From Isoetes taiwanensis (taxonomy: Eukaryota > Streptophyta > Lycopodiopsida > Isoetales > Isoetaceae), in NCBI GenBank assembly GCA_021234155.1, contig JAJEKV010000023.1, forward strand, positions 5,353,945-5,417,944: a stretch of DNA of 64,000 bases, in the 5' to 3' direction. The position numbers and the translations under genes are program-made. This document shows positions 34,801 through 63,533 of the stretch, one piece after another. Each line of letters opens with the position of its first letter. Position 1 is the first letter of the stretch. A model generated the notes under the pieces. It ran no database searches and was not told the DNA's origin. It worked only from the letters and a program-made list of their open reading frames with translations.

Positions 34801-37684
34801 GGAGGTTGCTCATGGCTTTGTCCATCTCTCTTTTTGGGATCTTGTCTGTCTTGTCCTTTGCAATGTGAGAACTTGGATATGACCATACCACACCACCAAT
34901 TCCCTCCTTTGAGGATCAGCATGATTTGCCCTCCAGTTCTTCTCCCAACAGTCGGTGTATTGCTCCTTCAAGTTGCCCTTCTTGTGTCTTCCAATGGGCT
35001 CCCAATATTGAACTTGGAATCCAGGACGCAACTTCTCTCCATCCGCCATAGTGGTGGTTACATCAGAGAGTGCCACCCCTAACCATATTGGACAATCCTC
35101 ATCATCAGGCCTTACTAACACAAAGTATCCTTCCTTGATGTCCTCAAAGGGATCCCACTCAGGAAGATCAAACCACTTCAACTTTGAGGCCTTACTTCCC
35201 ACAAACCACTTGGAACCTTTGTTAGGACCCAAGTGAACATTCTTAGATGTGCTTGCTCCTTGAGAACCCTCCCATCTAGACTCTGGCAAGAACCCGTCTC
35301 TCAGCTCCCCCCCACATGGTTGTTCAGTTTCTAAGCATGTTACAACTTTCTCCCAGTAATTGATTAGGGAGTCCATGTGATTTTTCTTAAGAGTGGAGGT
35401 GTGCTTTCCATTTTGAACATCATCCCAGTGCGTTATATAATCCTTGATGCCCTTCACTAGTTGGCTAGAGTCTTTAATAGTCTTGAAGGGAGGTAGTGGT
35501 TTTGGCTGCCCTTTAAGAATAAGAACTTCACCTGTAGCACCCCGTTGCCAAAACTCGATTCCTTGTACAGGCATCCACAACTTGTCACCTGGTCTCCACT
35601 TATATTGCATGATTGGTATTCCATCCCTAACCCAAAACTTGACCTGAAGTGGCTTTGTGTGTCCTGTCAATTGATCCTTACCATCTAGCAAGTAACCCTC
35701 GACAAATGATTTCCAATCTGCAACCTCATCCATCAAGAAAGCCATTGGGTTGGGGTCAATGCAGCTCTCAAACACATCCATTAGTTCAGGGAGACTAGTC
35801 ACATTTTCTTTCTTGAGCTTGGTAGAGAAAGTTCCGAAGAATACATCTATATCATCATGCGTATGCCCAACCATCATGAACCCCACTTTCACAACTTTGA
35901 ATACTCCCACTGCTGTCAAGTATGACATTGCCCCAAACATCCATCTATTCTTGTTTTCTTTCCAACAGTTGTCCAATTGAACACATAGCTCCTCTGACAG
36001 TTGTTTCTCAAGTAAGGGGAAATCATCCCAAGTCCTCCTTGATTCACTAGACACCTTGGATGTGAGATTTTTTATCTGCCTTTGGTAACAAAGCAGTTGA
36101 TCATCCATCAAAGCCTCAAAAATGGGGGCCGATGGGGAATACCTCCTCCCCTCTATCGATCCTTTCTCTAGTGTTCTCAAGCACTTGAAAATACAGCTCA
36201 CATGGAAGTTTGGATCATCCCTCTATAGATCAAGCACAAAATGACCATAGGTTCCAGTTCCATGCCCATGTGTCAAGACACCCACCAGACTTACTTTCAT
36301 CTGAAAAACGTTTTGACAACGCTTGGGTAAAGGATCTAGCTTTGGCAAGAAAGTCTTGTGTTGGTCCATCTTATCATGAATTATACACAAAAATCTGTCA
36401 GGCTACATCTGAGAAAATGTTCTCCACTGCCAATACAACTGTCTACATGATATTTGGTCCCTTTGGTGATCTGCAAATTGCTCCCTAATTGCCATTCTTT
36501 CTTTCTCTTATTGCAGTTGATGCAAGTGTATCCTTGAGTTGAATGCAAGTGTTGCACTTTGAGAATGGCATGTGTTGCAGGACACTCACGTCTGAGAAGT
36601 GAATGCTCCATTACTTGCTGAAATGTGATTGAGAAAGAGGCCCAGTAGTTTCTAGGATGGAGTTGACCTCTTTAAGGCACTCTTTTTGGATGTAATGGTG
36701 TGGCAACACCCTTTGCACCACTCGCACACCGTGCTCGTTCACCTTCGACTTGTGGGGCATAGATTGAGACATGTATCTCACAAAGCTCTCAAAGACTGCA
36801 ATGGCCTTCAGAGTGTTTGCTCTAGGTTTCAAAGTCAGTGCATTGCCATGTTGGAACAACCTGTGCCCTTTTCTAACCTGCTCCCAGTATCTGTAAAATG
36901 AAGATTTGCTCACGCCAAGAATCCATCTCAATGCTCTCATACATACCTTCAGGCCCCTCAATTGATATAGTAACATTCCTGTGTTTTCATCATAGCTGGA
37001 ATTTCTACACAAGGAGTAGATGAAATTAATCCTATCTTTCTGAAGTTGTCCAATATATTGGGACCTTATCTGCACGAGGTCATCCACATTGTACTGGACT
37101 GTGCAATCTAGGTTGCAACACTCTAATTGCCTCTAGGTTTTCTTTGGTTGGGGCCATACCTTCCATCCTTTCTAAATATTTGTCACTTCTAGCCCTCTTG
37201 GGCACCCTTGGCTGCCTTTTATGAAAAATATAGTGCCTCTTCCTTGTGATCAAAGGATGCTCATCCACCACCAAATCTTCCACATGGCCTGGGGTGGGCC
37301 TTGGGGTATCTAATTCAGTAGGGCCTTCCAGACTCTCACCATTCTTGTGTGTAATATATCTAATTGGCTATCTTAACTGTGTTTGGGACTCCAACAACCC
37401 AGAGCACACAATGCAATCACCAGAGCTTCCCTGGGACATGATTGTATCAACTTGGATAAGAAGCTTCACAATGCCAACTCCAAGATGATCATCTCCCAGC
37501 CTTTCATCATTCACACTATCAAAAGGATCAACTGCATTTATGATGCCCTCTGCAAATACTGTCTCGTTGCAAGGGTGCAACAATAAGCAGGCCATCTTCC
37601 TCCATTGGAGCCTAGGGCAATGTCCTGTGCTGGGCTTCCTTGGCTCCATTTTGCTCATCTCACATGCTCCCTGAATGAAAGAGC

Positions 37685-38954: not shown

Positions 38955-39602
38955 ACCCTGCATTCTCGACTCGCGAGTCGGGAATGCCTCAGCCAGCCAG
39001 CACGTCTTTTCTCTACTAAGGACTCGATAATGCTATGGTCACCGCCTTTGTTTGCATTCTCGACTCGCGAGTCGAGAATGACTAGTACTTCCTGGAGTGT
39101 TAGCTGGCCTAGTCATTCTCGTCTCGCGAGTCGAGAATGCAGACAGCAAGCCAACATATTTTTTCTCATGCATTCTCGACTCGCAAGTCGAGAATGCCTT
39201 AGCCAGCCAATTCTCCCGTGTCTGCATTCTCGACTCGCGAATCGAGAATGCCTTAACCAGCCAGCACTCCAGGAGTACTACCTGGAGTTTTGGCTGGCTA
39301 AGGCATTCTCGACTTGCGAGTTGAGAATGCCTTAGCCAGCCAATTCTCCTGTGTCTGGTCGCAGGTGCCTCTATCCAGTCAGAGCCACTCTCCTTCGAAC
39401 CATCTTCCTCGAATATTGCGAAGGGGAGGGCCTCGGACTGGGTGGAGGCCTCTGCAACTAACCACAGGGAAATGCATCCCTTAAGGCCAGCATCCTTAAG
39501 GCGTTCTGGCTGTTTTCTTGACTCGCGAGTCGAGAAGGCCCGTCAGTATCGGCACGCGAGTTTTGGCTGGCTAAGGCATTCTCGACTTGCGAGTCGAGAA
39601 TG
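38955..39602. repeat. E1 palindrome cluster: eight copies around CTCGACTCGCGAGTCGAG
   Basis: Perfect or near-perfect palindromes centred on TCGCGA lie at 38960-38987, 39055-39080, 39114-39139, 39171-39196, 39225-39250, 39304-39329, 39514-39537 and 39576-39602. Most extend to CATT...AATG arms of 26 bp. The best copy (39055-39080) has no mismatch. Separating sequence such as 'cttagccagccaattctcc' is itself repeated. All lie inside the long intron of the E1 minus-strand gene. Confidence 0.95.
39368..39448. repeat. ~81-bp foldback hairpin, copy 1 (shared E1/E2)
   Basis: Left arm CCTCTATCCAGTCAGAGCC..CTCCTTCG pairs with right arm CGAAGGGGAG..CTCGGACTGGGTGGAGG around a loop containing GAATATT. The same hairpin occurs at 39641-39721 and, in the other cassette, at 52681-52761. 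Confidence 0.9.
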
Positions 39603-39640
39603 CCTTAGCCATCCAATTCTCCTGTCTCTGGTCCCAGGTG

Positions 39641-39721
39641 CCTTTAGCCTGTCTGAGCCCCTCTCCTTCGAACCATCTTCCTCGAATATTGCGAAGGGGA
39701 GTGGCTCGGACTGGGTGGAGG
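39641..39721. repeat. ~81-bp foldback hairpin, copy 2
   Basis: Same arms and loop as copy 1 with a few changes (CCTTTAGCCTGTCTGAGCC). It follows an E1 palindrome at a spacing like that of copy 1. Confidence 0.88.
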
Positions 39722-39870
39722 CCTCTGCGACTAACCACAGGGGGACATCCTTAAGGCCCTAGACCTAGCATGATCTATACACAACTAGCATGCCTAATAG
39801 ATACTCGGACTGGATGGAGCCCTTTGCTTCTAAACAGAAGGGAATCCATTCCAAGCAAAAATACAGACAC

Positions 39871-42137: not shown

Positions 42138-42813
42138 GTAAATTACTGTCTCTGATTGGGGGGTTTCTCGACTCGAGAATACAATAGCAGCAAGTGCCAG
42201 CTATATAAGGTAAATTACTGTCTCTGATTGGGGGCTTTCTCGACTCGCGAGTCGAGAAACCCCACTGGAACTCAGGAAGTCAGAGGATGCGTGGGCTTTC
42301 GCGAGTCAAGAAAGCCCAGAGAAGTAAAGGAAATTAGAGGATGCAGGAGCTTTCTCGACTCGCGAGTCGAGAAAGCCAGAGGCAAAAAGGGAAGAAGAGG
42401 ACGAAGGGGCTTTCTCGACTCGTGAGTCAAGAAAGTCTCTTGAATCTTCTTTCATGTGCTCCTCTGACTTTCTCGACTCGGAGTCGAGAATCCCCAGGGT
42501 AATAGAGAGAACATTAGAGATTAATGGTTGAAGAGTGAAAGCATCGAGCCTTCCCAATCTTTCTTTCCCCGCCTCTTCGGGCAATGTCGCTTAGTTTATA
42601 TCCTAAGTTGCGTCGTTCGAAGAGGCGTGAAAGCAAAGATTTGGGAATGCGTGATGCTTTCGCTCTGGCCTTGACTCTCCTATGTTCTCTCCTCTCCTGT
42701 GGGTATTCTCGACTCGCGAGTCGAGAAAGCCCCTGCATCCTCCTATTTCTTGTTTCCCTCGAGTTTTAGGATATACTTTCATGCTCTAACATAGTTCCAT
42801 TTATTAAATGCAG
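42138..42813 (+). repeat. E1 intron packed with palindromes (about seven copies)
   Basis: Intron between AAG|GTAAAT and AATGCAG. Palindromic copies lie near 42163-42180 (half lost), 42236-42259, 42298-42317 (partial), 42349-42376, 42409-42435, 42467-42490 (centre shortened) and 42703-42730. About 59 bp around the donor are duplicated (42116-42174 against 42175-42233), so the donor sequence GTAAATTACTG occurs twice. Confidence 0.93.
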
Positions 42814-44425
42814 CCCATATCCTGACCAGATCATACACGCTCGGCAACAGTGGAAAACATTAGGTTGTTCTCAACGTTCTAAAGGAAACAGGGCTCCCTC
42901 GGATAAGTGGAAGGCCTTCGAGAAACTCTGCAGATATGTTCTTCTGGAAGGCCAGGAAGATGATGAGGGAGAGGATGAAAATGAGAAGAAGAAGAGAACA
43001 CCAAGAAAGGGCAGGGAATCTCTATCAGACCAATATGACCTCATTCTTAGCACTGAGGCGGTCTGGGAGAAACGGACTGAGATATGGGCTCTATGGACAA
43101 GAGGCAAGCTTAAGGACAGCAATGGAGAATTGTCAACCAGGCCAGACCCAAAGTTGTTCGACAAGCAATTCATGAAAAGGATACAGGGCCTGACGGACAA
43201 AGAAATGCTTGATCTACAGGGCAGAATCCTGGATGGAACAATCCTGCTAAGGAAAAGTAGAAGTTCAAAATTGCAGGACGCAAAGGATTACGCCACAATT
43301 CTAAAGAGACGCGTGCGTGCGTTAGAAGAAGGCATCACAGAGTTTTGCAATGTTGCCTCCAATGCATGCCACGATTTTGATTATTATAAGGAGAAGGCTG
43401 CGCTTGATGAGGAAGACATGAAGGAGTTGAACCGTCTATGTCAACCCTATATCAACACGAAGCTAAAGCGTAACGTCAAAACCCTCCCCGTCCCTGAACG
43501 TGCTATGGCACTTCTGAAGAGGAAGCTTGGATTCGGGGTGGTCCCATTTAAGACCGATGATAGCTCCCCTCCATTCCTGGTAACCTTGGGACACAAGGGG
43601 TTTGGTGATCTGGAACTGGCACCTGGGTCCGTGGCACTATTTTCCATGAATATGATCGAAGACCCCACTCTATTTTATGAAAAGGTGACATTGAGCAGTG
43701 GTACAGGACGTGTCTAGACATGACCGAGCTGGATACTTTCAGTTTCCTTATCTTTTGCATGCCGGGCAATCAGACAACTGCTGTGTCACAATGGGCAGCA
43801 GATATTAACTTCACCAACAGGATCTTGTATTCCATATACGAACTGGAACATGAGTGCAGAATTGGCCTGCCGAAGGCACCAAGTTTTGCCAATATAGTTT
43901 TGGTTATGGTTTCCAGATCGTATGCAGACCTGGACAAGTGGTGGTCTAGCGAGCACCACTATCTCGATAAGTTCATGATTTCTCAAGAGCTTATGGAACT
44001 CTGGAAGGGCGGCAGATTTATGGAGGATGTGACATTGATGGACAAAGTCAGCACTGATGGTGCGACAGGTCCAATACATAGATTTCCTATCCGGCCAAGA
44101 GTTATCAAGTACTTCATAACCAACTTGGTCGAGGAAGATCAAATTGTGTGCGAGTGGTACATGAATGGCCTGTTCTCTCAGGGGGCTATGCTGTATGGAA
44201 TGAAACCAATATCCATGGTTGGGAATAAGGACATGGTTAAAACCATTCGTCATACCTGGACCTGCTTCATGAGCATTTCAAAGAGAGGAAGATAGCTGGA
44301 AGCAATAAGGACGATGATGACGAAGACAAAGCTGACAGCCAGGGAGATAAAGATGACGGAGACGAGAATGTCCAAGGTTTAGACGAGAATGCTGCGGAAC
44401 AAATTTTGGAGAATCTGAGATTGAG

Positions 44426-44556
44426 GTGAGTTCACTTTGCTCTCGGAGTGTTTCTCGACTCGCGAGTCGAGAAACCCTCCGATTCATTAACTTTTTCCTT
44501 TCTCGACTCGTGAGTCGAGAAAGTCGTTTCTTATCTGACGTCTTTCATCATTTCAG
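44426..44556 (+). repeat. 131-nt E1 intron holding two palindromes
   Basis: Donor GAG|GTGAGT and acceptor TTTCAG|GG bound the intron. It contains TTTCTCGACTCGCGAGTCGA-type palindromes at 44451-44474 and 44497-44522. Nearly half of the intron is palindrome. Confidence 0.93.
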
Positions 44557-45534
44557 GGACATCGAGCGCAACCAATCCGGATCATTGACAATATCACAGG
44601 GATCTGCTGGCGGTTCAGTTCATGAGGAGGATACTGCATCCAAGAAAGGCAGTCAAGAGCAAGACAGTGCGGGCAGCAAGAAAGGACTTGGAAAAATGAT
44701 GATCCCGCATATGGATCCCGAGCAAGGGGAAATCTGGTCAGAGCCAAACTCTAACTGGGATCCAGAGGGTCCCACCAAGCTTATAATATTTGACGTCAAT
44801 GGAGTATTAGCTGCAGTATACCACGATAAAGACGTCCCTGAGCTTAACACCTCGCAGATGCTGACAAAAGCGGGGTCTAAAATCGTGTATCCTCGGCCTA
44901 AAGCAAAGGAGATTATTGATTGGTGCCTGGAACGCGGATTCGAAGTGGCCATATGGTCTTGTATGGCAAAGAAAAATGTTGTCAATGTCCTTGGTGTTCT
45001 CGGCCTTCCAGTTTTGAAGTTTAAGTTTGTTTGGGGAAACAAAAGGGTCGAGCATGTGTCAGACCTCGATCCAGCCATCACAAAGGGGAAGCCTATTATG
45101 GTGAAAAGGCTGGAGAGGGTTTTTGAAGCATACCAAGACTTTAACAAACACAACACGCTGATCATAGACGACTCCGCCTACAAGTGCTATCATAACTCGC
45201 ACAATACAATCATTGCCAAGAGTTATCGACCAGAAGAGTATGAAACGGATAGGTGGTTGTTTTTCAATCTCGTTCTTGTGTTGGCGGAATCCCTGTTTGC
45301 CATTCTTGTGGCCAATGTGATTAGGAACTATCCAAACCTCAAGCAGGTCGATCCTGAGAGCAGCGCGATCATGAAAGTTATGGACGACAAATATTATGGT
45401 GATCAAGAAGAGTGACTTCTGCTTTCAGATAGTCGAGTTGTGTAAATCTTGTAAAGAAACGTGAAGAAATGTACTATAAAGCACAATTTCATTATAATGG
45501 GAAAATTTTTAGTAAACTGGAATTCTTTTATTAT

Positions 45535-45690
45535 GGGGGTTGTATAGACCTTATGCAGGGGTTGTATACATGTGTACAGTACCCTATATCATAGACCTTA
45601 TGCAGGGGTTGTATACGCGTGTACAGTACCATGTATCATAGACCTTATGCAGGGGTTGTATACACGTGCAGTACCCGTATATCATACATA
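45535..45690. repeat. Three copies of a 47-bp tandem repeat
   Basis: 'atagaccttatgcaggggtt' occurs at 45544, 45591 and 45638. Each is followed by a near-palindromic 'gtatac(a/g)(t/c)gtgtacagtacc'. It lies 120 bp beyond the E1 gene stop and may mark the E1 3' flank. Confidence 0.92.
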
Positions 45691-45699
45691 CATGAATAT

Positions 45700-46278
45700 T
45701 TAGAGAACATAATAACACGGTATCATATACCAACTTCCATTAGGAAACCAGAGCTCACGCATATCCCAGCCTGATTCTTCCCACCATATGGGGTATCTAG
45801 TCATTGCAAAAAGTAATTCCACGGGATGATACTCACGGAAGAAGAGCGGACCCAACTCCACAAAACCATTGTACTCATTGTAGTACGTCCTAATAAGGCC
45901 ATACATCTGTCCCTTACAAATTTCACGAATGAACTCTGATATGTATTGATCCAGAAAGTGTGCTAAATATCCAGCACGAAGAAGAGGCCTCAATTGCTGT
46001 AGCATCTCGTCCAGAAAAGGAGGGGGTTCAAGAATTCCCCTCATTGCAAGTCTCCTATAACATTCAGATGGATTAATTTCCATCAGTGGCTCATGACCAC
46101 AATCAAATCGCTCCAGAATGAAGTTGATCAACTCCATTGTAAGCTCCTTGGTGGGACTGTGGCGCAACCTCCACTCCAAGAAATGGTCAAATAGCTCATC
46201 AGTTCCAGGCCGCACAGAATGGCTGGGGCATGCTTGCAGGCCTTCTGGAGTAGCCCAGGGGGGATTGGGTCCAATCAT
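45700..46278 (-). CDS. Unidentified 192-residue protein
   Basis: Open frame from ATG 46278 (MIGPNPPWATPEG) to the stop at 45700. The frame stays open further upstream, but there it runs through a repetitive purine-rich tract, so I chose this start. The product is rich in Trp, Tyr, Pro and Leu with an acidic helical middle (LFDHFLEWRLRHSPTKEL, ECYRRLAMRGILEPPPF) and an aromatic C-terminus (PIWWEESGWDMRELWFPNGSW). I know no family. It sits between cassettes E1 and E2, next to several minisatellites, and could be an extra gene of either element. Confidence 0.4.
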   Translation of the reverse strand: MIGPNPPWATPEGLQACPSHSVRPGTDELFDHFLEWRLRHSPTKELTMELINFILERFDCGHEPLMEINPSECYRRLAMRGILEPPPFLDEMLQQLRPLLRAGYLAHFLDQYISEFIREICKGQMYGLIRTYYNEYNGFVELGPLFFREYHPVELLFAMTRYPIWWEESGWDMRELWFPNGSWYMIPCYYVL

Positions 46279-46289
46279 TTGCAAAAGCA

Positions 46290-46800
46290 AGCAAGGATCA
46301 CCGACGGAACAAGGAACACGGAGCGGAGCAGAGAAAGTAGCAAGATCAAGAGCAAGGAACAAGATCAAGTAGCAAGGAGCACGGGAATGAAGTAGCAAGG
46401 AACAAGGATCAAGATCAAGTAGCAAGGAGCAATGAACAAGGAAGATCAAGTGCTAAGAAGATCAAGGAACAAGGAAGATCAAGGAGCAAGAAGCAAGGAT
46501 CAAGATCAAGTAGCAAGGAACAAGATCAAGTAGCAAGATCAAGTAGCAAGATCAAGAGCAAGGAACAAGATTAAGTAGCAAGGAGCACGGGAATGAAGTA
46601 GCAAGGAACAAGGATCAAGATCAAGTAGCAAGAAGCAATGAACAAGGAAGATCAAGTAGCAAGAAGATCAAGGAACAAGGAAGATCAAGTAGCAAGAAGA
46701 TCAAGGAACAAGGAAGATCAAGTAACAAGAAGATCAAGGAACAAGGAAGATGAAGGAGCAAGAAGCAAGGAACAAGATCAAGTAGCAAGGTGAAAAGTGA
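46290..46800. repeat. Purine-rich minisatellite (aagatcaagtagcaaggaac type)
   Basis: About 500 bp built from shuffled short units: 'aagatcaag', 'tagcaagg', 'aacaagg'. Longer blocks are also duplicated (for example 'ggagcacgggaatgaagtag' near 46376 and 46582). It reads without stops in one minus frame only because of its composition. Confidence 0.93.
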
Positions 46801-46838
46801 GAAGCGAAAGGAAGGTGAAAGAATTTAAAGCTACGAAT

Positions 46839-46935
46839 CCAATAATGTTGAAGTATAATACCAATAATGTTGAAGTATAATACCAATAATGCTGACGTAT
46901 AATACCAATAATGCTGAAGTATTATACCAATAATT
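46839..46935. repeat. 22-bp tandem repeat, about 4.5 copies
   Basis: 'ccaataatgttgaagtataa' starts at 46839, 46861, 46883 and 46905, with a partial copy at 46927. The period is exactly 22. Confidence 0.93.
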
Positions 46936-46940
46936 CTACA

Positions 46941-47228
46941 ATGACTATAAAAGCAGCTCCATTCGGTGGTAGAAGTCATTCATCTCCCATGGCTTATAAT
47001 ATTTATGAAGATCGGTTTGAGACCATTATTTGCTCCATGAGCTACAATGATATTGTTCGGTGCATACATAAAGGTGTTAAGCTGGATCCCTACTTACAAT
47101 CCAAAGCAGATGGTCCTGAGTGTCATTGCCCTGGCCTTACTCGTGTTGTGATCCATATTCTTTGGCTTCCTGAGCGCCATGCCTACGAGCTGAATGGGAT
47201 CACGTTAGCAGGGATTGAAGATGAGTGA
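46941..47228 (+). CDS. Unidentified small protein (95 residues)
   Basis: ATG 46941 to TGA 47228. The product starts MTIKAAPFGGRSHSSPMAYN and contains IICSMSYNDIVRCIHKGV and ECHCPGLTRVVIHILWLPERH. It has four Cys and a balanced composition that looks coding, but no family I know. It lies between E1 and E2, downstream of a 22-bp tandem repeat. It may be an exon of a longer gene or a leftover. Confidence 0.35.
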   Translation: MTIKAAPFGGRSHSSPMAYNIYEDRFETIICSMSYNDIVRCIHKGVKLDPYLQSKADGPECHCPGLTRVVIHILWLPERHAYELNGITLAGIEDE

Positions 47229-47484
47229 ATCATCGACTCTATAATGCCATCAATAATATGTGCATCTAAATTATATGTATGCCATCAATAATGTGTGCAT
47301 CAGATGTAATGATGTGTATTAAACACCTATTATAAAAGATGTAAGGATGTAGTATAAGCATAATGAAAGATAATTGATGTATCGACTGGGTATTAATTGT
47401 ATAAAATGCAGCTGTATTATAGCAAAAGAAATTACATACATGATTATCGAGAACATGACTGAGATTGAGAGCTTTTAGCTAATG

Positions 47485-50400
47485 CTATGTCCCCCCACAT
47501 GTCAACAATGTATTTTGGAATCTGAACAGTCTTCGGTCTTTTGCATTTGCATCCCATGCATAATGTATGACATCTAACTTCTCATACCTTGATGGATCTG
47601 ATGGATTGGGTCGCCAACGTTTAGTTAAGCAACCTGTATAGTCACGACCAATAGGCATCCATCATGATACATAAATGTGACCATAATTGGTAGACTCTGG
47701 ATCTAGGATGGCATCTTCTTCTGTAAAGCCCAACCACGTTGGAGTTTCATCATCTCCAGGTCGGACTAAAACGAACATACCTTTCGTAACATGTGCATGA
47801 GGATCGAACTCATCCATAGGTAACACTGGACGCCCATCTGCTGGCCCACAATACGTAGGCAAAGGTCTTACAAGCACAGCGGCTTCATCGACCTCTGGAG
47901 TAAATGCAGCTTATAGAGGTTCTTGCCTTGTACGCAACCAAAAGTTATCATTTTGAGGTCGTCCTGGATATACATCTTCCAAACACAAAAGAATCTCGTT
48001 CCAGTAATCCATAGTTGCTTTGTACTGTCGTGCAAACACACTATCTTCTTGATTTTTGCAGAAGGAATTCTATAATGCTATATGCACTTGCGATGCCGTC
48101 TGCCCGGGCCGGGGAGATCTTTCAATGTCTTCCTTGGAGGGATATTTTTAGGCACCCCTGTTGGTAACATTGGCTCACCATTTTCATCCTCCTTCCACAT
48201 TCTTATTCCATTTTCTGGAATCCACTCTTTATGGGTTGGCCGCATCTTATATTGCATAATGGGCCATTTCCCATCCATTTTAAATCGGAATAGCAATGGG
48301 TCGGTATGGCTGTTAGGCGTTGGCCCTTATCGAGGGGATATATCCCTTGACAAAGCCTTTCCAATCACGGAACTTCATCCACAAAATATGGAACATGAGA
48401 CTTTGCATTGCACTTGCTAAACAAGTAAAGCAACTCAGGCAAAGTTAGAGCATCCGATGAATTCATTAACGTCGAAAAGTTCCCAAACAATGCATCAATA
48501 TCGTCATGAGTGTGCCCAACCATCATGAAGCCAACCTGAATCTCATCGAATACTTTAAGCCATGTCAAATAAGAGAGGTAGGAGAACACATATCTATTTT
48601 TATTTTGACCCGATGCATTATCCAACTGTAAGTAGAGATTTCGAGGAAGAGGATTGAAGCCTTCTAAGTAGGCACCAGAAGATGAAGGCATCTTCTCTTG
48701 TGTCTGCGCTAGCTTATGCTGCAGTGGTCGAGTATCTTTTAGGGCTTGTATCAATTTGCAATCTGTAGTACAGCTTCCACACAGATCACCACACTTGTCT
48801 TCTTCCGGCAACTCAAGATAGTGTAGGATCCTAGAAAGTGATCCAACATGAAAGTTTGAGTCATCCTTCCAAAGATCAAGAGAGAAATGGCCATAAGCCC
48901 GTCCACCATGACCATGTATCAATGCTCCTGTCAAGCCGCTCTTCAAGCGATCTCCTCTCCAAACAGACTTTGCGAGATGGTGACTTCTTGGTGTGAGTGT
49001 TTTGACCTGATCCATCTTATCATGTGTCATACAAAGGTGACTTTCTGGCGAACGATGTGATAATGCACGCCAATGCCAATATTGACTCCTACAGGAACGT
49101 TATTCCAACATATGTGCCTGCCGTTGAATTGAAAGGTTGCGCCTCTCCCTTGTATCTTTTGTTCTTTCCAATTTCTGCTTGATGACTACACATATGTTAC
49201 ACTTGGAGAATCTTTGTATTTTTGCTATCTTGTATTTGGAAACTCTTTCTTCCAAATATTGTAAAAAGAGGGCAAGGTTACACTCTTTCCCGTCAATTCT
49301 TCCACCACGGCACCCATTTCCTTATGTATGCTCTTCTTATTAAGGATGGAAGGAAGTTTGCGAACATTCTCCCTTATATCATCCTTTCCTTTTTTTCTTC
49401 TATGTGGAATGCTCTCCGCATTCTCACTAATGAAGGTATCAAGCACACTTTCTGTAGCTAGTGTCACAGATCTAGGCTTCTTAGAGCCTGTATTACCATG
49501 CTCCGCCCGTTTTCCACCTAACTCGAACCTCTTCCTCCAACTATAAAACGTAGACTGAGCAACTCCTAAAGCCCGGCGCCATGCGAATTGACAAAGACTC
49601 CACTCCGGAGACCACTATTTTTAGCCTCCGACCGCCTGTATAAGTTACACTCAACACATCAAAAAACAAGCGTAATCCTCGGCCTTTGCTTGATTGAGAA
49701 TAAAATTCTTTTCTTAAGGCACATACTTGCTCTCGGCTCAGTTTTTTGACACATTCGTCCTTGCAGCATGTTGATTTTAGAGCACTCTTGATTGACTTGG
49801 AAGCGCACATCCTCTCCTCCTTGCTATCCCCCTTTGGTTCTTTCCTGGCCCTCTTCACATATGTATATTTCCTTTTCCTCTTGAATTGCTTCTCAACATC
49901 AGCTTCCAAGCACTCAACTTCTAAGTCATCCTGTTCGAGAGCAGCTCGAGCTTGTAAATGTTGTGAAACTGTCCTACCATCATGAAGCAAAACATCATGG
50001 GTCTCCCAGGTTACTAGACTGTTAGCTAGAGGCCTCTCAGCACAAGCATGACATGACCTGATATTTTGGTTTCCCGTTGGATCTATTATGTTACCCACTG
50101 AAAGCCCGACCTTTGATTCACCCAAGAACTCATCGTCTATAGCATCCTGAGGATCACTAAAGACTATATTCGCCTCCAAATACTTAGATCCAATGCAGAG
50201 TGAAGAATGTAGCATGGCAAACCTAGTAGATCTGTTCTAGAGTAGTAGACTGTCTCATCTTCAGGCTTAAACAACCTGAGACCAAGACGGGCAGCTAGAT
50301 TCTCATGACCTCTAATCTCCTCTACTATCTCATCTTCTTCATTTGTTGCTGTGTTGCTTGGTTCACCATAGTGAGCAGTGAAACTGATGTCTGGCGGGCT

Positions 50401-50722
50401 ACTGACAGATGGACTACTAGATGAATCCTCTTCTGAAGAGGGCAAATTGAGGGATCTCGAAGACGTATCTTCACTTGAGGGGCACTCAACATTTTTTACA
50501 TCCCTCTTAGGCCACTGAATGAATGTGTCTACTGCTTCACCAATGTTATCTGCCCCTCCGCAGGGGACTGGAAGCTCCGTCGATGGGATCACGGACTCCA
50601 TGACCTCAATTGCTACATTTAAAGGATCTATTTCCCTCCCATGAAGAGTGGTTCTCTTCAAAATATGGCCTGGGGCAACAATTGTCCTTCCGACGAATAG
50701 GTTGTACAGGGGAAAATTGAAC
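47485..50722 (-). pseudogene. Cassette E2 minus-strand gene: DUF8039-like plus DUF7869-like transposase candidate
   Basis: Homologue of the E1 minus-strand gene. The exon starts at 50722 after acceptor GAAACAG. In order: NLFVGRTIVAPGHIL and NIGEAVDTFIQWPKRD (DUF8039-like, about 50720-50500); a Ser/Glu-rich linker; ANIVFSDPQDAIDDEFLG; a basic segment; a Cys/HTH-like stretch ending ALGVAQSTFYSWRKRFELGG (about 49590-49520); and KSVTLPSFYNIWKKEF with a CNIC pair. Then come HDKMDQ (49027), GHGGRAYGHFSLDLW, LQLDNASGQNKNR, GFMMVGHTHDDID and a FVLVRPGDDETPTWLGF segment. The C-terminus runs past an in-frame TGA (47664-47662, Trp in E1) to 47485. Frameshifts occur near 49590, 49225-49030 and 48300. GHTHDDID with an upstream LDN suggests an RNase H-like transposase core (inference). 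Dead as written. Confidence 0.72.
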
Positions 50723-50855
50723 CTGTTTCAATCAAGCAAGGCGACACTTTTTAGAACATATGAATTAGACGAAAAATAAGCACTAAACAAGCAAAAATGG
50801 TGCCATTTAATACAAAAGAATAAAATTTGGTGTAAATTTGGAGCTAAATGGTGAA

Positions 50856-51050
50856 CACTTGGATCAAATGGCGCCATGGCGCCATTTGATCCAAGTGCAC
50901 CATTTCGACTAAATGGCGCCATGGCTCCATTTGGCTCCAAATTTACATTTCGACCGTACACCATTTCAACCGAATGGCGTTATGGCGCCATTCAGACCAA
51001 AACCCCATTTTAGTGTATTTGGGCCAGAATGGCGCCCTGGCGCCATTTGA
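50856..51050. repeat. E2 palindrome cluster in the upstream intron
   Basis: Copies of the ATGGCGCCATGGCGCCAT palindrome. The first, 50856-50897, is a perfect 42-bp palindrome extending to CACTTGGATC on the left and GATCCAAGTG on the right. Weaker copies lie at about 50914-50936, 50972-50992 and 51028-51050. They lie upstream of the E2 minus-gene acceptor, so probably in its first intron. Confidence 0.93.
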
Positions 51051-51384
51051 TCCAAGTGGGTGCCATGGGGCGATTTGGCTTAGCTCCATCACAAAATCTA
51101 CACGAGGTGCCTATGCTATGCATTCTTGCTCCCATTGCTGTATATGTGTCAATAAGAGCAGGCATGCATAACATGGGCACCCCATGCCAACTTTGCAATT
51201 GAAACCAAGGTTCTTAGTGTCCTAGCAGCATTAATGTCAGCATTTGAACACGCTATACACATGGCAGCAATAGAACAGAATTCATACCAGAAATAGTGGA
51301 CTTACTTGATATTAGATAGATCCATAGTGGTATGTCCTGGAGCAGTAGAAGGAACAGGAAAATCAAGCTGATCCCAGCAGATAA

Positions 51385-51500
51385 ATTCGCAGAAGAATGC
51401 GCCAAGAAGAAAGCGCCAAGAAGGATTCGCCAAGAAGAAAGCGCCAAGAATCACCTGGGATTTCTGTGAGCGCCAAGAAGAAAGCGCCTGACAGCACGCA
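51385..51500. repeat. 'cgccaagaagaaag' minisatellite
   Basis: Irregular repeats of 'gcgccaagaagaaagcgcc' and 'ggattcgccaagaag'. They share the GCGCC word with the E2 palindrome but are not palindromic. Confidence 0.8.
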
Positions 51501-51699
51501 TGCGCCTTGCAAAGTTTCTGCCTAGGCGCCTGAGAAAAGAAGCGCGCCTTATGCGAGCGGCAGCTGAAACGAGCAGGCGGATTCGAAGGCGTCTGAACCG
51601 TGCACGAAAACGTCTGCGTCGTGCCATGGTCGCTTTAAGAGAAAGAACGGCGACAAAGAGGGAGCTTTAAATGCAAAGTAAAATTTTAAAAACGGACGA

Positions 51700-51920
51700 T
51701 TCAAATTTGGACAGGTGGCAGTCAAATTTCAATTTACGGGCGGGAATTTTGACTTTTATGTTAATTGCGGGCGGGATTTTTTGAATTTTATGTTCAAATT
51801 TAGGCGGGCGGGCGTTAGGGCGGGAAATATTCGAATTTCAAAATTCAAATTTGGGCGGGCATGGGCGCCTGGACCGCCACGGGCATGGGCGGGCATGGGC
51901 GCCTGGACAGCCTCGGGCCC
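51700..51920. repeat. GC-rich 'gggcgggcatgggcgcctgg' repeats
   Basis: Low-complexity block of GGGCGGG with AATTTTGAATTT interruptions, and two copies of 'gggcatgggcgcctgga'. It directly precedes the proposed first exon of the E2 plus-strand gene and may overlap its promoter. Confidence 0.8.
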
Positions 51921-52248
51921 TAGTTGGCCGCCTGTGGTACAGCAGACAGCCAGCGGCCAAAGTTAGTTATGCCTAATTGTTTTTCTGAAGCACCTCATTC
52001 GGTTTTTTCGTTTTCGATTCCAGCTCCTAGCGCCTCGACCTTAGCCGCCAGCGCCCAGCGCCTAAAGCAACCCTTTTTCGTCCTTTATTTTCAGTGTTTT
52101 CTGGCGCCATTTCCCCACAGTTCAACGCATCAACACATCAAGCTACACATTAGTTTTCAGACCAAATTCAAGGCGCTCGAAATAGAAATCGACAATTCTG
52201 GAGCTCCTCAGAATGTGGAGACAGCGGCTAGCGCACCTCAAGGGACAG

Positions 52249-52932
52249 GTATGTCATCTACTTGCATTGTTTTGTTTGGGCTAAATGGCGCCACCACACC
52301 ATTTAGATGCCTGGTAGCCAGTTTAAGGTCTTATAGTTGACAAATGGCGCCATGGCGCCATTTGGATGCCTGAGCGCACTTTAGGAGTCTATTAGCTTAC
52401 TTTAGGATGCCTAGTAGCTTACTCTAGGGAGTCTTATTGTTACCAAATGGCGCCATGGCGCCATTTGATGTCTATTAGCTTACATTAGGGCCTTGTTGTT
52501 GGCAAATGGCGCCATGGCGCCATTTGATGTCTATTAGCTTACCATAGGGCCTTGTTGTTGGCAAATGGCGCCATGGCGCTATTCGATGTCTATTAGCATA
52601 CATTTGGGCCTTGTTGTTGGCAAATGGCGCCAAACAGGAGTCATTCGCATATGTATTGCTCCTCCAACGAATCGCAGGTGCCTCTACCCAGTCAGAGCCA
52701 CTCTCCTTCCAACCATCTTCCGCGAATATTGCGAAGGGGAGGGGCTCGGACTGGGTGGAGGCCTCTGCGAACAAACGCAGGGAAATGCATACGAACTGCT
52801 TCCATGTGCTTATGCACTGGACTCAGATGCAAATGGCGCCACAGCGCCATTTGCCTACCACAACTGATTGTCTGCCTGCTTGTTAAAACCATTTACTGAT
52901 GCCTCTTTGTTACTGATGCCCCTTTGTTGCAG
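52249..52932 (+). repeat. E2 intron 1 with five to six palindromes and the shared hairpin
   Basis: Palindrome copies at 52342-52363, 52445-52466, 52504-52525 (all perfect), 52563-52584 (two changes) and 52831-52852 (centre altered), plus a half copy near 52622. 'tgatgtctattagcttacat'-type spacers repeat with them at about 59-bp intervals between 52445 and 52620. The donor is CAG|GTATGT and the acceptor TTGCAG. Confidence 0.94.
52681..52761. repeat. ~81-bp foldback hairpin, copy 3 (in E2)
   Basis: Arms CCTCTACCCAGTCAGAGCC and GGGCTCGGACTGGGTGGAGG, with CTCCTTCC/GAAGGGGAG inside, around a GAATATT loop. Apart from a few bases it equals the two E1 copies, including flanks 'tcgcaggtg' and 'cagggaaatgcat'. 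Confidence 0.92.
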
Positions 52933-54606
52933 CTATATTACGTCCGGAAACACAATTTCAATCCGACCAGACTATCATGCTGATAGACAGGTACTGGTAC
53001 ATGGAAGTAATGCGGGTGAGCCCCTCTACTGCTACAGGCTCGAAAGGAGACTGCAGAAGAGAGCACTGCTTCCTTATAAAGGAGACAGCCCCAGAATCAG
53101 CCGGAATTTACCAGCCAGGTATCTTGGTCCACATGAAGATGGTTGTCAAGAGTGGTCGCGAGGATTGGATCCGGGTGGTCTGTGAGGATACTATGCAGCA
53201 GAGAATAATTGTCTACTATGTGGACTGGAAGTTTTATGATCCCACTGTAATGTCTGCTAGTTGCAAATGTAGCTGGTTCGGCGAAGAAGCAAGGCTGGGC
53301 GCTGCCATGAAGAAGCTGACATCAAAGGCCCACAAGAAATCTTGAGGGGCTTTATGATTCTTCGCAATCGTATGAACGAGTCGAAAAACTCGCCTTCATT
53401 CGTTGTCAAGGCATTAGCTCAGCAGAAACTACCCGTCATTGTGGACACGGCCTGGCTAAAAACAGTTAGCAAGAAGAAGACAAGACAAACTAAGGAGACA
53501 CCTGCAGCCGAAAAAGACTCCTCATCTTCTACTGAGGATGTTGTCCAGGAAACTGACGAAGGAAAGGCGGCGGGCAAGCAGAAAGTTAAGAGAAAGGTTC
53601 ACAAAGATCCAGAGACGGAAAAGAAGGAAAAGAAGGAAGAGAAGGAAAAGGAAGAGAAGGAAAAGAAGGAAAAGAAAGAGAGGGAAAGGGATGGCAAGGG
53701 GCAGAAGGAAGGAAAGGCGAGAAAGGAAAAGGAGGGAAGGGAAGTGGAGACAGAGGAAATGGAAGGGAAAAAGAAGAAGAAGAAGCACAGGCTGGAGACC
53801 TCCGAGAAGGATAGGACACCAAAAAAGCAAAGAAGGCAGACTCAGACTCCTAGTCCTGCTGGAAGCCCAAGAAGTGGTGGTGAACCTCCAAGCCCATCGC
53901 ATAGCCAGGATCCTGCGGGCACACCGGCCAAAAGGGTCACCATTCAGAAGCCAGAGCGCAAGCTTACCTTAAGAATTGCTTAGCACTTGCTAGAGGTGCC
54001 TGCAAACCTTAAGGTGGAAAGGCCAGAAGAGGAAAAGACGGCAGAGAATACACTGCAAAAAATTTACGATCACCGGCATCTGTTTCCTCTGGGTGTCACA
54101 TTTATAAAAAAGATAGACGTGTTCAAACTATATCAAGGGCCAGCAAATCTGACATCTAGACCAAGGAATATGGAGCACGTCAAAACGTTAGTGGAGTCCT
54201 TTCAGAGAGACCCACATCCAGTGTTCATTCCCGCTGATGTGATTCCATTCAATCCCCTCACAAACAAACTGGTCCCTTGGAAAACCGAGGATGCCCTCAT
54301 GGGGATTATATAGTGAATGGCAATCATTCAGTTATGGCTGCTCAGCTTGTATGTAGAAGACTCGGCACAACAAAGTCCCAAGAGCAAATGTCAAAGATTT
54401 ATCTTCAACGGAATTGCCGAGTCTTATCTGGCACAGTCAACGAACAAGAATGCCTGCAGCTCAGTTGTGAAGTCAATGATATCACTGCGAAGACTATTTT
54501 CAAAGAGCCGTTCATTGATAACATAACCCACCTGCGGCAGCGATATGCTCTATGCGGGAAGCCTGATCCATCGGGACGCGGGCAGTCACGCTCAGAACCA
54601 TACAAG

Positions 54607-54792
54607 GTACATACTGTTGTAATTGTTGGCAAGATTAGCAACGCGGCGCCATTTAGTGAGGAAATGGCGTCCGCGGCGCCATTCCTCACTAAATGGCCGC
54701 GGCTGCTTTTGCTCATTAAATGTCATTCAAGGCTAACTTCTTGTTGTTTCCAACGTTATCTGGCTTTGGCTGAAGTTACCATGCGTGGTAAG
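54607..54792 (+). repeat. E2 intron 2 with a GGCGCC inverted repeat
   Basis: 'ggcgccatttagtgaggaaa' (from about 54645) pairs with 'cggcgccattcctcactaaa' (from about 54675). They form a hairpin of about 25-bp arms, again built on GGCGCCATT. The donor AAG|GTACAT is clear. The acceptor GGTAAG before 54793 keeps frame but has a weak pyrimidine tract. Confidence 0.7.
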
Positions 54793-56271
54793 CATCCAAA
54801 AGATTTCAACCAGTGGGTCTTCATGCCAGAGGATATTTTTTAGTTATTCATGTCCCTATGGAACTTGTGGAAATCTGGCAAGCTACAAGATAACAAGGGA
54901 CAAACTATTACTTGTAACTGGGCAAAAGATCATGACTACTTCAGTCAGACCTACCTGAGGTGCATGAGGGGTCTCGACTACTTAAGACCGCCGGGTTTTG
55001 TTCGTGAAGTCTTTGGATGGGAAGACCTTCGTCAAGGTCACCAGTGATTATACAGGTAAGCAATTCTTCAAGGCAAGGGCAAAGACACTACGATCTATAT
55101 CGTTCTTGAAGAAGGAGATTATGTGAAGGATAATTTTCCGAGGAAGTTCAAATCCTTCACTGATCTCAGTACTGCCGTGGCGGGCTTCGAGGATACCGAC
55201 CTGGTTTCCATGGGCACCTTGCATAGTAAGTGGGTTGAAGTTGGAGTGACCAAGGAAGGAGTTTTCGGTAACGTGCCACCTGCCTTGGCAAGATATATAC
55301 GCAATGCTGTCTTGCAGAGAGAGGATACTAAAGACTTCCGTTGCGAAGTTGAACTAACTGACAGCAGGGGGCAAGTTGTTTGCACTCCTGTACCAGCATC
55401 CTTGATAGCCCTGGATACTAGAGGCATAATTCCAATGTGGGACAGAACCACACTATCTAATTTCTTTAATACAACTGTAAAGAACACCACAGCTGATTCT
55501 TTCTGGATAGTGGTCTTTGCAAGGCCAGAGCATAACTTTTTGATTTCATCTGTGTTGGATGATCTGGATTCCAGATCCAGAGTTTTTATTGGCATGTATG
55601 AGGACGAATACAAGAATCCGCCTGCCCCAGGAGTTCAGGAGCTCCATGCACTAGTGTACGCCACAAAAATTCAGGCCACTGCAGGTCATCCTTTCGATGA
55701 AATTGACCTGAGATTCCCGTTTGCCGATCATCCTCAAGAACTGCCACCAGTTCCTGTACCTAATGAAGAAGACGAAGACGGGGAGACCGAGACTATGGCC
55801 GGGAAGCTCTGCAACAGCAGATTCAGGTACAGCTGGCAAGGCTTGCCAGGGGATATAATCATGAGAAACCAGCTGGGGCCTGCCACATGCTCCTATCTCG
55901 TGCAGAAAATGGTACTGCCAGGAACAGGAGTTTTTGATTACTTCTCCTGTGGTTCGTTTGGCCGGGCTTCATTGATGAATAAGAGATTTTGCATTGTCTT
56001 CGAAAGTGACCCGGTTAAGCAGGAGTGCCTAAAGGGCATTCTTGGTAGGCTTGACCGCCTCCCCATCGCAACAGTTCCTGTGACAGAGAGACCAGCTGCT
56101 GTAGTTGAAGAAGCTGTAGATCCACCAAATCCAGTGATACCTGAAGCTCAACCCGATGTGGACTATGACGTGATCAGGAATACACAATTCAATCTAGATG
56201 TTCTTGATGATCCCAATTTTACAGCCACAGCGTTCGAGAGCTTTCAAGGAGATTCTAGGTGCTTCTTCTAG

Positions 56272-56640
56272 CCATGGCACTGGCGATGCAGAACCTGATG
56301 CTGCTGCATAGCCTCAATCTGTTTTGTGATTATAATGTAAATTGTACAAAAACATTTTTGTAAACAGACTACCTCTTCTGATTCCTTGCCTGTTGTGGCA
56401 AATTTATGGATATGCAAATCTATGAATTTAGAAATTTTTACTGATTTTGTGATCTTATGTTTCTTTAGCTTCATTATATGCACTGTTAGTATTTTTAATG
56501 GCGCCAATAAATGGCATAATTGCTCAAAAAAACGCCATAAAATGGACTAAAAAGGATTTTCGTTCCTAATTAGAATCACGAAATTTCTCATTTTAATGAA
56601 ATTGTGCTTTATATTTTGTAATGAATATACTTGTACATTG
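56272..56640. other. E2 3' flank
   Basis: AT-rich, with a last partial GGCGCC motif near 56502 ('aatggcgccaataaatggc'). Probably 3' untranslated region and the edge of E2. No gene. Confidence 0.4.
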
Positions 56641-56960
56641 AGTTTTCGCTGGCTTTCTCGACTCGCGAGTCGAGAAAGGCATGCTTGTCCTATTGATGAA
56701 ACCATTTGTATGTTTGTTTGTGTGACTGGATGCAGCCATATTCTATAATGATAATGGTTGTACATTGGGTTTCCAGGGCCTTTCTGGACTCGCGAGTCGA
56801 GAAAGGCACTGCTTGTCTCGTTCACGAGACCATTTGTATGCTTCCGTGTGTGATTGGATGCAGCCATATTCTAATGAAAATGGTTGTACTTTGACTTTTC
56901 AGGGCCTTTCTCGACTCGCGAGTCGAGAAAGGCACTACTTGTCACGTGATTGGATGCAGT
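56641..56960. repeat. Three ~127-bp tandem units, each with an E1-type palindrome
   Basis: Palindromes at 56654-56677, 56781-56804 (one mismatch) and 56907-56930 lie 127 and 126 bp apart. Shared spacer words between them are 'ccatttgtatg', 'gattggatgcagccatattc' and 'tggttgtac'. Arms extend to GCCTTT...AAAGGC. These belong to the E1 palindrome family although they lie beyond E2. Confidence 0.93.
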
Positions 56961-57063
56961 TTTATGGAATGAATGTTCTCCATTGTATTTTGAATTCTCC
57001 ATTCTTTTCTTCGTTTTGACTAATGGCACCGTAATTGTTAATCATGGACTCTCCTTACTCCAG

Positions 57064-57572
57064 ATGGTTCAGGCACAGATCCCGCACCAGCACAGATCCC
57101 GTTCAGGCATCACAGAGACCGCTCCAGACGGCACAGATCCCGCTCTAGGCGGCAGAGATACCGTTCTGGCACAGATCCCGCTTACGCTACACTCTTACCC
57201 AGCCTTTGGGATAAGGTTGCTCGTGAATGCAGAAGCTATGCAGACGCTCGGGATGAAGAAGAGGGGAAGAAATTTTCGAAAGTCCAGAAAGCTCAAAGTA
57301 TCTTGCAAGCATTGCATAACATCCATGGAGGTTGGGGAAGGAGCATATTCGATGAAAAGCTGCGGGAGGAGAGTGGAGAAGTCGGGTGGACAGGTCAGCC
57401 GGTGGCTCCCGAGGCACCTCCTCGTGAGGCATTCCACACTCTTCAGGTTGCCCCCAAGGCTTACAAACGGCATGAAGAAGCCACGCAAGTTAATCCCCTA
57501 AGGTGGACCACCTACCACGATGATGTAACTGTAGTGACAGTAAGACCGCCATGGTCTCTGCGTCCGATGTAA
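57064..57572 (+). other. Candidate exon encoding an Arg/Ser-rich protein segment
   Basis: Open frame right after a good acceptor (CTTACTCCAG) to TAA at 57572, about 169 residues. It opens with an RS-type stretch (RHHRDRSRRHRSRSRRQRYR), partly encoded by repeated 'ggcacagatcccgc' words. It continues as a mixed, apparently coding sequence (LWDKVARECRSYADARDEEE, KAQSILQALHNIHGG) to a Trp/Pro-rich end. RS stretches occur in splicing factors and nuclear proteins, but no RNA-binding domain is visible. An upstream exon ending in phase 1 would be needed and I could not find it. It may be the last exon of an E1-type gene cut off by E2. Confidence 0.4.
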
Positions 57573-58050
57573 AATACATTGTACCTATTCAATTTATTAA
57601 TAAAAATTCTTTTTCAACTACAACTTTGGTTTCAATCTGTAATGAATTTCCTTTGTTTGAGTTGTATTGTTCTTGTTCTCGACTCGCTATCCGAGAAAAC
57701 TGGGAGAAAGCTCGAATCCACACTAAGAGACAAATATTCGAATTATGGACAGTTTTCGAGTCGGAGTAATTTTTCCATCTCCTTTTTGTGTAAAATAACA
57801 GGGTTCCGAAAAAAAGTAGGAATAGAATGAGACCCACTTTAATTAAATACGACTTCCAAGTACCTCCAGCTCCAGCCCAACTGATAATAGTGACAGTGGA
57901 TCACATAGCAGCTAAAAAGGTGAGCCAGATAGCTCACATGGCAGGAACAGGAACAGTAAGGCAGAGTATTACCAAAAGAAAATTGATAGTTCCATGAGCA
58001 ATGTGTGAAAAAGCCCGAAAATTGGGGTAGTTATTTGGGAAGGACAGGTG
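57573..58050. other. Short gene-free stretch
   Basis: Possible 3' untranslated DNA of the candidate exon. Contains 'tctcgactcgctatccgaga' (57677-57696), a degenerate E1-type palindrome. No gene. Confidence 0.4.
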
Positions 58051-62096: not shown

Positions 62097-63533
62097 ATGG
62101 CCCTTCAAGCAATGAAAATGGAAGACCATGCTGCTACAAATGGGGAGAGGATGATTTTCGAGGCAAGAGAATTACAGAAACATGCTGTTGAGTTACAGAA
62201 AATGGTAAATTACAACAGCATAAGCATGTTGGATGATGAAGGGGCTAATTTCTTGGTTCAAAGTCTGGATCAAGCAATGGCAATATTGATGAGCACAAAA
62301 GAAGTGCTAACAAAAACAAAGCCAAATCTGCACCTGGGCAATATGCATGATGGAACTACTCTGTCTACACACAATAGCCATAGCAATCTGGCACAGCTTA
62401 ACATTCCCTACACTCTTGGGTTCAAGGAAGAGGGGCCTTCTTCCAGCATGGGTACAGGGGATAGCTTACTTGAACAAGCAGATAATTTTGGCAGACCAAG
62501 CCCCAAAAGAAGGTATACATATATCCTGTCTTCTCAAAACATATTTCCTTCAGCTTTGCATCTTTTGCTGATACTCTTTTGTTTCATTCTATAGAAGAAC
62601 TCTGACAACTCCTGAACTGGTCCCTGTTATAAAAAATGATCAAGGGGCTGAAATTCCTCCTCCTGATGACCATAGCTGGCGAAAATATGGCCAGAAAACT
62701 ATTCTGGGATCATTGCATCCTAGGTATAATCTTTGAATCCTTAAACTATGTGTTAGTACTTTCATAGTTCTTGACTAACCTACAATACAACTTCAAAAAA
62801 AAAAAACTTGAAAGAAATGTTCTTCCAATGAAAAGTTATGTTTTTCTTGTTTACTCAGCCTTAGACATTATAAGTTGGGAATTGAGCTGATTCATTGCTG
62901 TTGTTTATATGCAGAATGTATTATCGCTGCAGCCGAAAGGGCGAGGGGTGTCTTGCACAGAAGCAAGTGCAAAAATTGGACTCTGATCCCTCTCTTTACC
63001 AAGTTACACACTTATACAAGCACACCTGCAAGCAACAAGCATCATGCTATGGATCTCCCTCTTCTGCTACAGCAGCTTGTTTGAGAATCGGAGAAAACGG
63101 TTCGCTGCAGATCGGCGCGAGGAAGATAATGAATCCTACGCCTGCAATCAATCCTCACCAACATGCTGAATTCTTGGCTTCAATCACTAAAAAGTTGCAT
63201 CCAAGTCCACTGTGCATAGAGAAGCCAGAACAGAATAGATTTGAATTTGACTTTGGATTTCCATCCCCTGATAATACTGTGGAATCTAGGTGCCAGAGTT
63301 CACCTTCTACTCCTATTATTGAAAGCTCCATTAATACTTCTAGGTTTGAGAGCTCTCCTTGTACTACCCCTGTATTAGCTTCTCCATCCTCTGTTTTTAA
63401 TGACCCTGACCCTTTTAACCTTGACCTGGACATTGAAATTCTCACTCAACAACAGAATGAAGACTGGTTTGAAGCAGAAAGTATGGAATTTCTTCTGCCC
63501 TTTCAGAACTATGAATTCCCTTACAATGAATAG
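62097..63533 (+). CDS. Group III-like WRKY transcription factor (three exons, 387 residues)
   Basis: WRKY proteins bind W boxes (TTGAC[C/T]) in the nucleus and mainly control stress, defence and senescence genes. Exons are 62097-62512, 62595-62723 and 62915-63533, all with GT..AG borders. The second intron splits the Arg of LHPR in phase 2, the conserved 'PR' intron of this family. The N-terminus is helical ([32 protein letters not shown]), as in group III. The domain reads [20 protein letters not shown], then [18 protein letters not shown] and YKHTCKQ. The WRKYGQK heptad is intact. The zinc ligands are C-x6-C-x23-H-x-C, like group III (C-x7-C-x23-H-x-C) but one residue shorter in the first loop. 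The Ser/Pro-rich, acidic C-terminus ([14 protein letters not shown]) may activate transcription. The start is the first ATG of the exon. Confidence 0.95.

Follow-up and report, generated by a model that had tools for sequence, protein, structure and literature searches.

Two related DNA transposons, one nested inside the other, were found in a 64,000-nucleotide stretch of Isoetes taiwanensis DNA (the window), and each carried an array of its own palindromic word, private to it within the DNA examined. Arrays of such words recurred at the same place in related loci, with regular spacing and, in the best array, with palindrome cores far better kept than their flanks. These patterns point to family-specific recognition codes, by which the elements would mark themselves.

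Comparison of the window with itself revealed two pairs of inverted ends. The outer element, E1, occupied 34575-57855 (12.15 kb without E2). Its inverted ends (TIRs), AAGTCGCATTTAATTAAAGTGGGTC at 34575-34599 on the plus strand and the counterpart at 57831-57855 on the minus strand, were identical at 24 of 25 positions, and the target duplication (TSD) CCAA was present on both sides (34571-34574 and 57856-57859). E2 (45479-56609, 11.1 kb) lay within E1, a nesting overlooked in the preliminary description. It was bounded by AAGCACAATTTCATTATAATGGGAAA at 45479-45504 (plus strand) and by the right TIR at 56584-56609 (minus strand), identical at 24 of 26 positions, and by the TSD TATA at 45475-45478 on the left and 56610-56613 on the right. 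Because the ends of E1 and E2 are related in sequence (AAG...ATTT.ATTA.A.TGGG), the two elements are considered relatives. TIRs combined with a short TSD, the mark of cut-and-paste transposition, were seen in E1, in E2 and in one of the related loci described below, L005. We regard both E1 and E2 as transposons of this type, related to each other. Each has a divergent gene pair, made up of a DUF7869 gene on the minus strand and a second gene on the plus strand.

The main exons of the E1 DUF7869 gene (34810-37132, minus strand; PF25273, E 5.1e-36) contained an in-frame stop. In E2, the exons of the transposase-like DUF7869 gene downstream of intron 1 covered 47488-50722 on the minus strand with a broken frame; the Pfam domain PF25273 was recognized at 48368-49099 (E 1.3e-36), and pieces at 47488-48326 matched the E1 protein. 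The second gene of E1 ran from 40851, a start set by eye, to 45415 on the plus strand. That of E2 (52933-56271, plus strand) consisted of a partner-like module at 53984-54840 and an exon at 55060-56271, again with a broken frame. The two second genes were 32% identical over 98 aa (E 5e-7; z 5.4, reached by 0 of 500 shuffles). Because their reading frames are broken, both window copies look decayed. The last exon of E2 (55060-56268) had no relatives among 4311 candidates of 0.55-1.75 times its length drawn from 5.8 billion proteins, and its structure model reached a pLDDT of 34.

Several further features of the two elements were recorded. The second gene of E1 ends in a NIF/FCP1-like phosphatase domain (44357-45415; PF03031, E 4.8e-9), which Pfam scans of the tested E2 ORFs did not show; it may have been captured from the host. 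In the left part of E2 (46290-46950), AAGATCAAGTAGCAAG-type repeats were densely packed and a 22-bp tandem repeat was also present; a nearby minus-strand ORF (45703-46452) had no Pfam match. For an ORF on the plus strand at 57000-57572, in the tail of E1 to the right of the nested E2, the self-comparison of the window listed no E2 counterpart. The window also contained a PPR gene (5391-7730), a WRKY domain (62886-63533) and a PIF1-type helicase that matched Helitron weakly; by these genes it is nuclear DNA of a land plant.

The preliminary description had reported about ten copies of a palindrome in E2, distributed over introns on both sides of the divergent gene pair, one of them extended to a perfect 42-bp palindrome. 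All of this was borne out. Ten sites of the 22-base word AAATGGCGCCATGGCGCCATTT were found with up to four mismatches, and none in 20 shuffles. Intron 1 of the DUF7869 gene (50723-51305, minus strand, GT-AG, spliced start MDLSNIKFNFPLY) contains four of them (50868-51046; starts 50868, 50913, 50974 and 51029), and the first visible intron of the plus-strand gene (52249-52932; donor CAG/GTATGT, acceptor TTGCAG/) contains the other six (52285-52850; starts 52285, which is degenerate, 52344, 52447, 52506, 52565 and 52833). Both introns are predictions from our own GT-AG reading, with the frame of the plus-strand gene checked by hand. The perfect 42-bp palindrome was found exactly at 50856-50897, around the first copy. 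With at most three mismatches, ATGGCGCCATGGCGCCAT matched ten times in the window, where dinucleotide shuffles gave an expectation of 0.01. Nine of the matches fell at 50868-52850 (four perfect, three with one mismatch and two with two), and the tenth, with three mismatches, was in E1 at 40495. Further down the plus-strand gene of E2, a 50-bp imperfect palindrome with GGCGCCATTT half-sites (54645-54697) is probably a relic of the E2 word.

The E1 word occurred in four clusters. Eight copies lay between the divergent genes (38965-39598) and four in a stretch of the plus-strand gene that was read by eye as an intron (42239-42725); the donor of this putative intron was absent from the listing of the splice-pattern scan and its ends were set by eye. 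Two copies (44454-44519) were located in an intron of the second gene (44426-44556), and the last four at about 56653-57695, between the nested E2 and the right terminus of E1. Since E2 is nested inside E1, these four belong to the tail of E1 itself. The idea that they break the privacy of the words or mark a third element was rejected, as the inverted ends of E1 enclose them.

That each word is private to its element, as had been proposed, was confirmed within the DNA examined by counting the 24-base E1 word and the 22-base E2 word with up to four mismatches: the E1 word was found 18 times in E1, and neither in E2 nor in the 40.7 kb outside the elements, and the E2 word 10 times in E2 and in neither of the other two compartments; 20 shuffles for each word gave no site. 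Among 12 stretches compared, three words were confined to their own element, with 18 copies in E1, 10 in E2 and 6 in L001. Inside E1 and E2, 21 palindromes had arms of 8 bases or more, and 17 of these were the two words; the 40.7 kb outside held only four such palindromes, all different. The E2 palindrome had no match in viral contigs.

A hairpin of about 110 nt was observed within both palindrome arrays, at 39359-39477 and 39632-39742 in E1 and at 52672-52790 in E2. It is 92% identical between the two elements, far above the identity of their proteins, and folds with -65 to -72 kcal/mol per 128-nt stretch. It had no real match in L001-L009. It may stem from a small mobile unit or from a recent exchange, or it may be a cis element common to both.

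Relatives of the two elements were sought with profile A2, built from 18 DUF7869 proteins and run against prokaryote assemblies. Nine loci were obtained (L001-L009), which are, by their content, eukaryote contigs in MAGs: L002-L009 came from one 'Trichormus' MAG and L001 from another cyanobacterial MAG. Because Trichormus azollae lives as a symbiont in the fern Azolla, this plant is the likely host, and L002-L009 probably derive from it. The same divergent pair was evident in L005, L006, L007 and L009: the DUF7869 ORF was uninterrupted for 873-898 codons, and the partner, corresponding to the second gene, lay on the opposite strand. Seven fern-type ORFs had stop-to-stop lengths of 873-924 aa. 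In L008 the partner is truncated, and the contigs of L002-L004 were too short to show whether one is present. L005 was complete, with inverted ends at 391-423 and 8082-8114 (33-nt TIR, 79% identity) and the TSD AACA. L008 had TIRs (34 nt, 94%) and no matching duplication, and in the other seven loci, mostly on short contigs, no TIR/TSD ends were recognized. In viral contigs, 38 stretches matched a pattern of the DUF7869 profile and 12 a pattern of the partner profile; none was confirmed.

These loci allowed examination of the proposal that each protein subfamily goes with its own palindrome, and the proposal was supported, as different words tracked the DUF7869 identity groups. A palindrome scan without a central spacer had missed the fern arrays; a scan allowing up to four spacer bases found them, with mononucleotide shuffles giving 0.1-0.9 sites per locus. 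The region upstream of the DUF7869 gene is kept in seven of the fern-type loci, and repeated palindromes were present there in every one (three sites each in L002, L003 and L004, five in L005, 15 in L006, two in L007 and ten in L009), although at least one of the 20 shuffles of L007, the locus with only two, also gave a site. In the four loci in which an undeleted partner was seen, the array lies between the divergent genes. The only related locus that lacked palindromes was L008, where the array region has been lost by deletion. This is deduced from the partner ORF, which begins only at LEIREPHNL, equivalent to about residue 327 in the other partners, and directly adjoins the start of the DUF7869 ORF. 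The internally deleted L008 element (L008:177-6220) has kept its inverted ends and lost the intergenic array together with the N-terminal half of the partner.

Six elements with DUF7869 proteins 67-85% identical to each other (L002, L003, L005, L006, L007 and L009) have the word GTCGATGCnnnGCATCGAC in common, and the exact half-site GTCGATGC occurred in six of six. L004, 56-58% identical to these six, has the word TCCGATGCnnnGCATCGGA with the half-site TCCGATGC and no exact GTCGATGC. The L004 and GTCGATGC words are separated only by their exact half-sites; a mismatch-tolerant matrix mixes them, scoring nine L004-type sites in L009 and three GTCGATGC-type sites in L004. Different words are found in L001, E1 and E2, whose proteins share 21-39% identity with one another and with those of the other loci. 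Six copies of TTTAGCTCGAnTCGAGCTAAA (up to four mismatches) were located on both sides of the DUF7869 ORF in L001, and the words of L001 and E1 have the stretch CTCGACTCG in common. In L006 (L006:2535-3276), two interleaved palindromes with GTCGATAC and GTCGATGC half-sites were observed about 51 bp apart, and L006 may be either one element with two words or an element with its word in mid-change. The link between word and subfamily, seen in nine loci from two MAGs with a deduced host and in two decayed window copies, could partly reflect plain common descent, and copies within tandem repeats are not independent of each other.

The position of the arrays bears on the possibility that the DUF7869 transposase itself recognizes the palindromes, which would then be comparable to the subterminal repeats of other DNA transposons. 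Four copies of the E1 word indeed lie 0.2-1.2 kb from the right end of E1, a lone AATGGCGCCA is present in E2 at 56497, 0.1 kb from the right end, and the words track the DUF7869 tree, which is inseparable here from the partner tree. The main arrays of L005 and E2, however, are 3.4-5.4 kb from both ends. They are thus central and not subterminal transposase sites in those two elements, and ordinary subterminal sites were rejected as the main reading. Moreover, all exact GTCGATGC and GTCGATAC half-sites in the L005, L006, L007 and L009 contigs fall in the divergent intergenic stretch. We therefore consider binding by the transposase unlikely. The distance of the main arrays from the ends fits a promoter role.

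A promoter role would also be compatible with borrowed sites for host transcription factors, the privacy of the words then reflecting the use of different host factors by different elements. The location around the divergent promoter agrees with this explanation, but 28 copies of two words in sister elements at one locus are more than a promoter needs. The spacing of the copies speaks against it as well. Among all 53 spacings below 150 bp in all elements, 39 were 45-65 bp and 24 were 50-52 bp. Spacings of 50-52 bp were found in L002, L004, L005, L006 and L009, and they were common to arrays with different words (two of two in L004, 10 of 14 in L006 and nine of nine in L009). The 51-bp spacing was not kept in L003 (41-43 bp), in L007 (42 bp) or throughout L005 (31 bp in part). 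Borrowed host sites appear quite improbable to us.

The copies might instead be selfish or mutational by-products, formed by template switching and local tandem duplication, or act as RNA hairpins, in both cases with no protein reader. Consistent with this, the E2 copies lie within 59-bp tandem repeats and the E1 copies within 126-127 bp tandem repeats, one copy has grown to 42 bp, and the flanks adjacent to the cores stay complementary (means of 5.6 of 8 positions in E1 and 4.3 of 8 in E2, chance 2) though they differ between clusters. In the ten-copy array of L009, however, the palindrome columns were 98% identical and the flanks 65%, a figure less biased by selection as the copies are near perfect. 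The corresponding core and flank identities of 0.93 and 0.47 in E1 and of 0.92 and 0.50 in E2 are inflated by the choice of copies with up to four core mismatches. Furthermore, separate subfamilies have different words at matching positions, and outside the elements palindromes with arms of 8 bases or more number only four in 40.7 kb. An origin without a reader is accordingly held to be of low probability. Among the changes within cores, eight of 15 in E1 and none of seven in E2 were CpG transitions; those of E1 would fit past methylation.

The protein encoded by the second gene was analyzed as the candidate reader. A profile of the four partner ORFs gave 29 protein matches among 7989 scored candidates, those with the most shared words; one was L009's own protein and one was named from the fern Ceratopteris richardii. 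Alignment A7 comprised 28 of the 29 matches and the four ORFs (32 members). It contains the strongly conserved stretch YFVIGGSHSAEARRQL...CKIYVGLT.DEAKLLAWDHNNDNDYRQKMSSIERIRFF, which looks ParB-like by eye, followed by DIPYGF and DLFSGTG. The reading of the latter two in the fern partner as probable amino-methyltransferase motifs was supported by matches of the L005 partner to PHROG 67 (E 9.7e-6), to a CcrM model (E 5e-4) and, by tblastn, to phage methyltransferases (E 2e-5). Six of 159 phage methyltransferase records were inspected for a possible ParB part, and the matched gene had 242-281 codons in each. No ParB model was matched by the partner in Pfam (searched with the 32 members), NCBIfam, PHROGs or the PDB sequences; a search for ParB relatives gave none in phages and, in plasmids, three records at E 1 or worse. 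Sequence comparison with the PDB gave nothing convincing (CcrM, E 1.9).

The second gene of E2 was colinear with the 32-partner profile at 7.5 bits, a value equaled by none of the 1302 scored shuffles (2000 made). The second gene of E1 reached 1.6 bits, as did 25 of 1647 scored shuffles, and is linked to the partner only through E2. When the 32-member profile was run against the separate frames of E1 and E2, the E2 module came first, at an E value of only 0.034. In profile-profile comparison of the four-member partner alignment with pieces of E1 and E2, the best hit was an E2 piece at the expected place, with an E value of 0.0063 and a probability of 6%. A likeness of the E1 and E2 tails to methyltransferases is seen by eye but not in the scores (z 0.07 and 0.19).

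We favor, with moderate confidence, the explanation that the arrays are cognate sites for the element's second protein, which would exert VANC-like promoter control or anti-silencing, and that word and protein co-drift. Each element would keep an array of its own word around its divergent promoter. The product of the second gene, as a dimer, for which long palindromes are well suited, would bind the palindromes and act only on DNA bearing them. Once bound, it would regulate the divergent promoter, from which it most likely would keep off host silencing, as VANC does on VANDAL. Word and protein would drift together, so that related elements would end with private codes. Binding by a protein, the identity of that protein and anti-silencing are what we infer from this arrangement. 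A more specific version, which we judge unlikely, is that plant transposons have adopted a bacterial-type ParB-methylase. Such a protein would load on a private parS-like array, coat or adenine-methylate the promoter domain and so tell self from host or sister elements, with co-evolution of word and reader.

Precedents exist for such an arrangement. In En/Spm (CACTA) elements, TNPA reads many copies of an element-specific 12-bp subterminal repeat and counters methylation. As in the explanation favored here, an element-encoded protein is combined with many copies of an element-specific word; the TNPA sites are, however, subterminal and not palindromic, whereas the palindromes here are mostly central. 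A further precedent is the VANDAL/VANC system of Arabidopsis MULEs. VANC binds motif arrays within its own VANDAL element, where they occupy introns as well as intergenic and terminal non-coding DNA (PMC5735166), and strips methylation; the arrays are tandem repeats that differ between related elements (PMC5735166; PMC10398659). Likewise, the non-coding DNA of the elements studied here holds arrays of private motifs, present in many copies and in tandem repeats, together with a fast-changing second gene beside the transposase gene. VANC motifs differ in being 8-9 bp long and, for VANC21, in the same orientation, in contrast to palindromes of about 18-42 bp. The VANDAL transposase is of the MULE type and not DUF7869, and VANC has DUF1985/DUF287 domains where the partner here is ParB/methyltransferase-like; Pfam scans of the second-gene ORFs showed neither DUF1985 nor DUF287. 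Anti-silencing has been demonstrated for VANC, whereas we infer it for the E1/E2-type elements.

With respect to the transposon family, Sola2 elements are described as having a TSD of 4 bp, inverted ends that are short and a transposase of close to 890 aa (PMC3627910). This resembles the 4-bp TSDs of E1, E2 and L005, the short inverted ends and the ORFs of 873-924 aa, a likeness by description only, and the passages on Sola2 consulted mention neither palindromes nor a ParB/methyltransferase partner. ParB-methylase fusions occur in bacteria and phages (PMC5512222). The fern partner similarly reads as a ParB-like domain followed by an adenine methylase; it differs from these fusions in a ParB part recognized by motif only and in belonging to plant transposons with private palindrome arrays. 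A limited literature search found no published account of DUF7869 plant elements.

If an element protein reads the arrays, these elements would add another, independent instance of a private DNA code by which transposons mark themselves. As the transposon family, the plants and the protein all differ from those of VANDAL, the VANDAL strategy would then have evolved repeatedly. Natural pairs of a protein and a long palindrome would become available for the study of changing DNA recognition and as orthogonal DNA-targeting tools, and if the ParB-methylase reading holds, the elements would provide a large natural set of orthogonal DNA-reader pairs.
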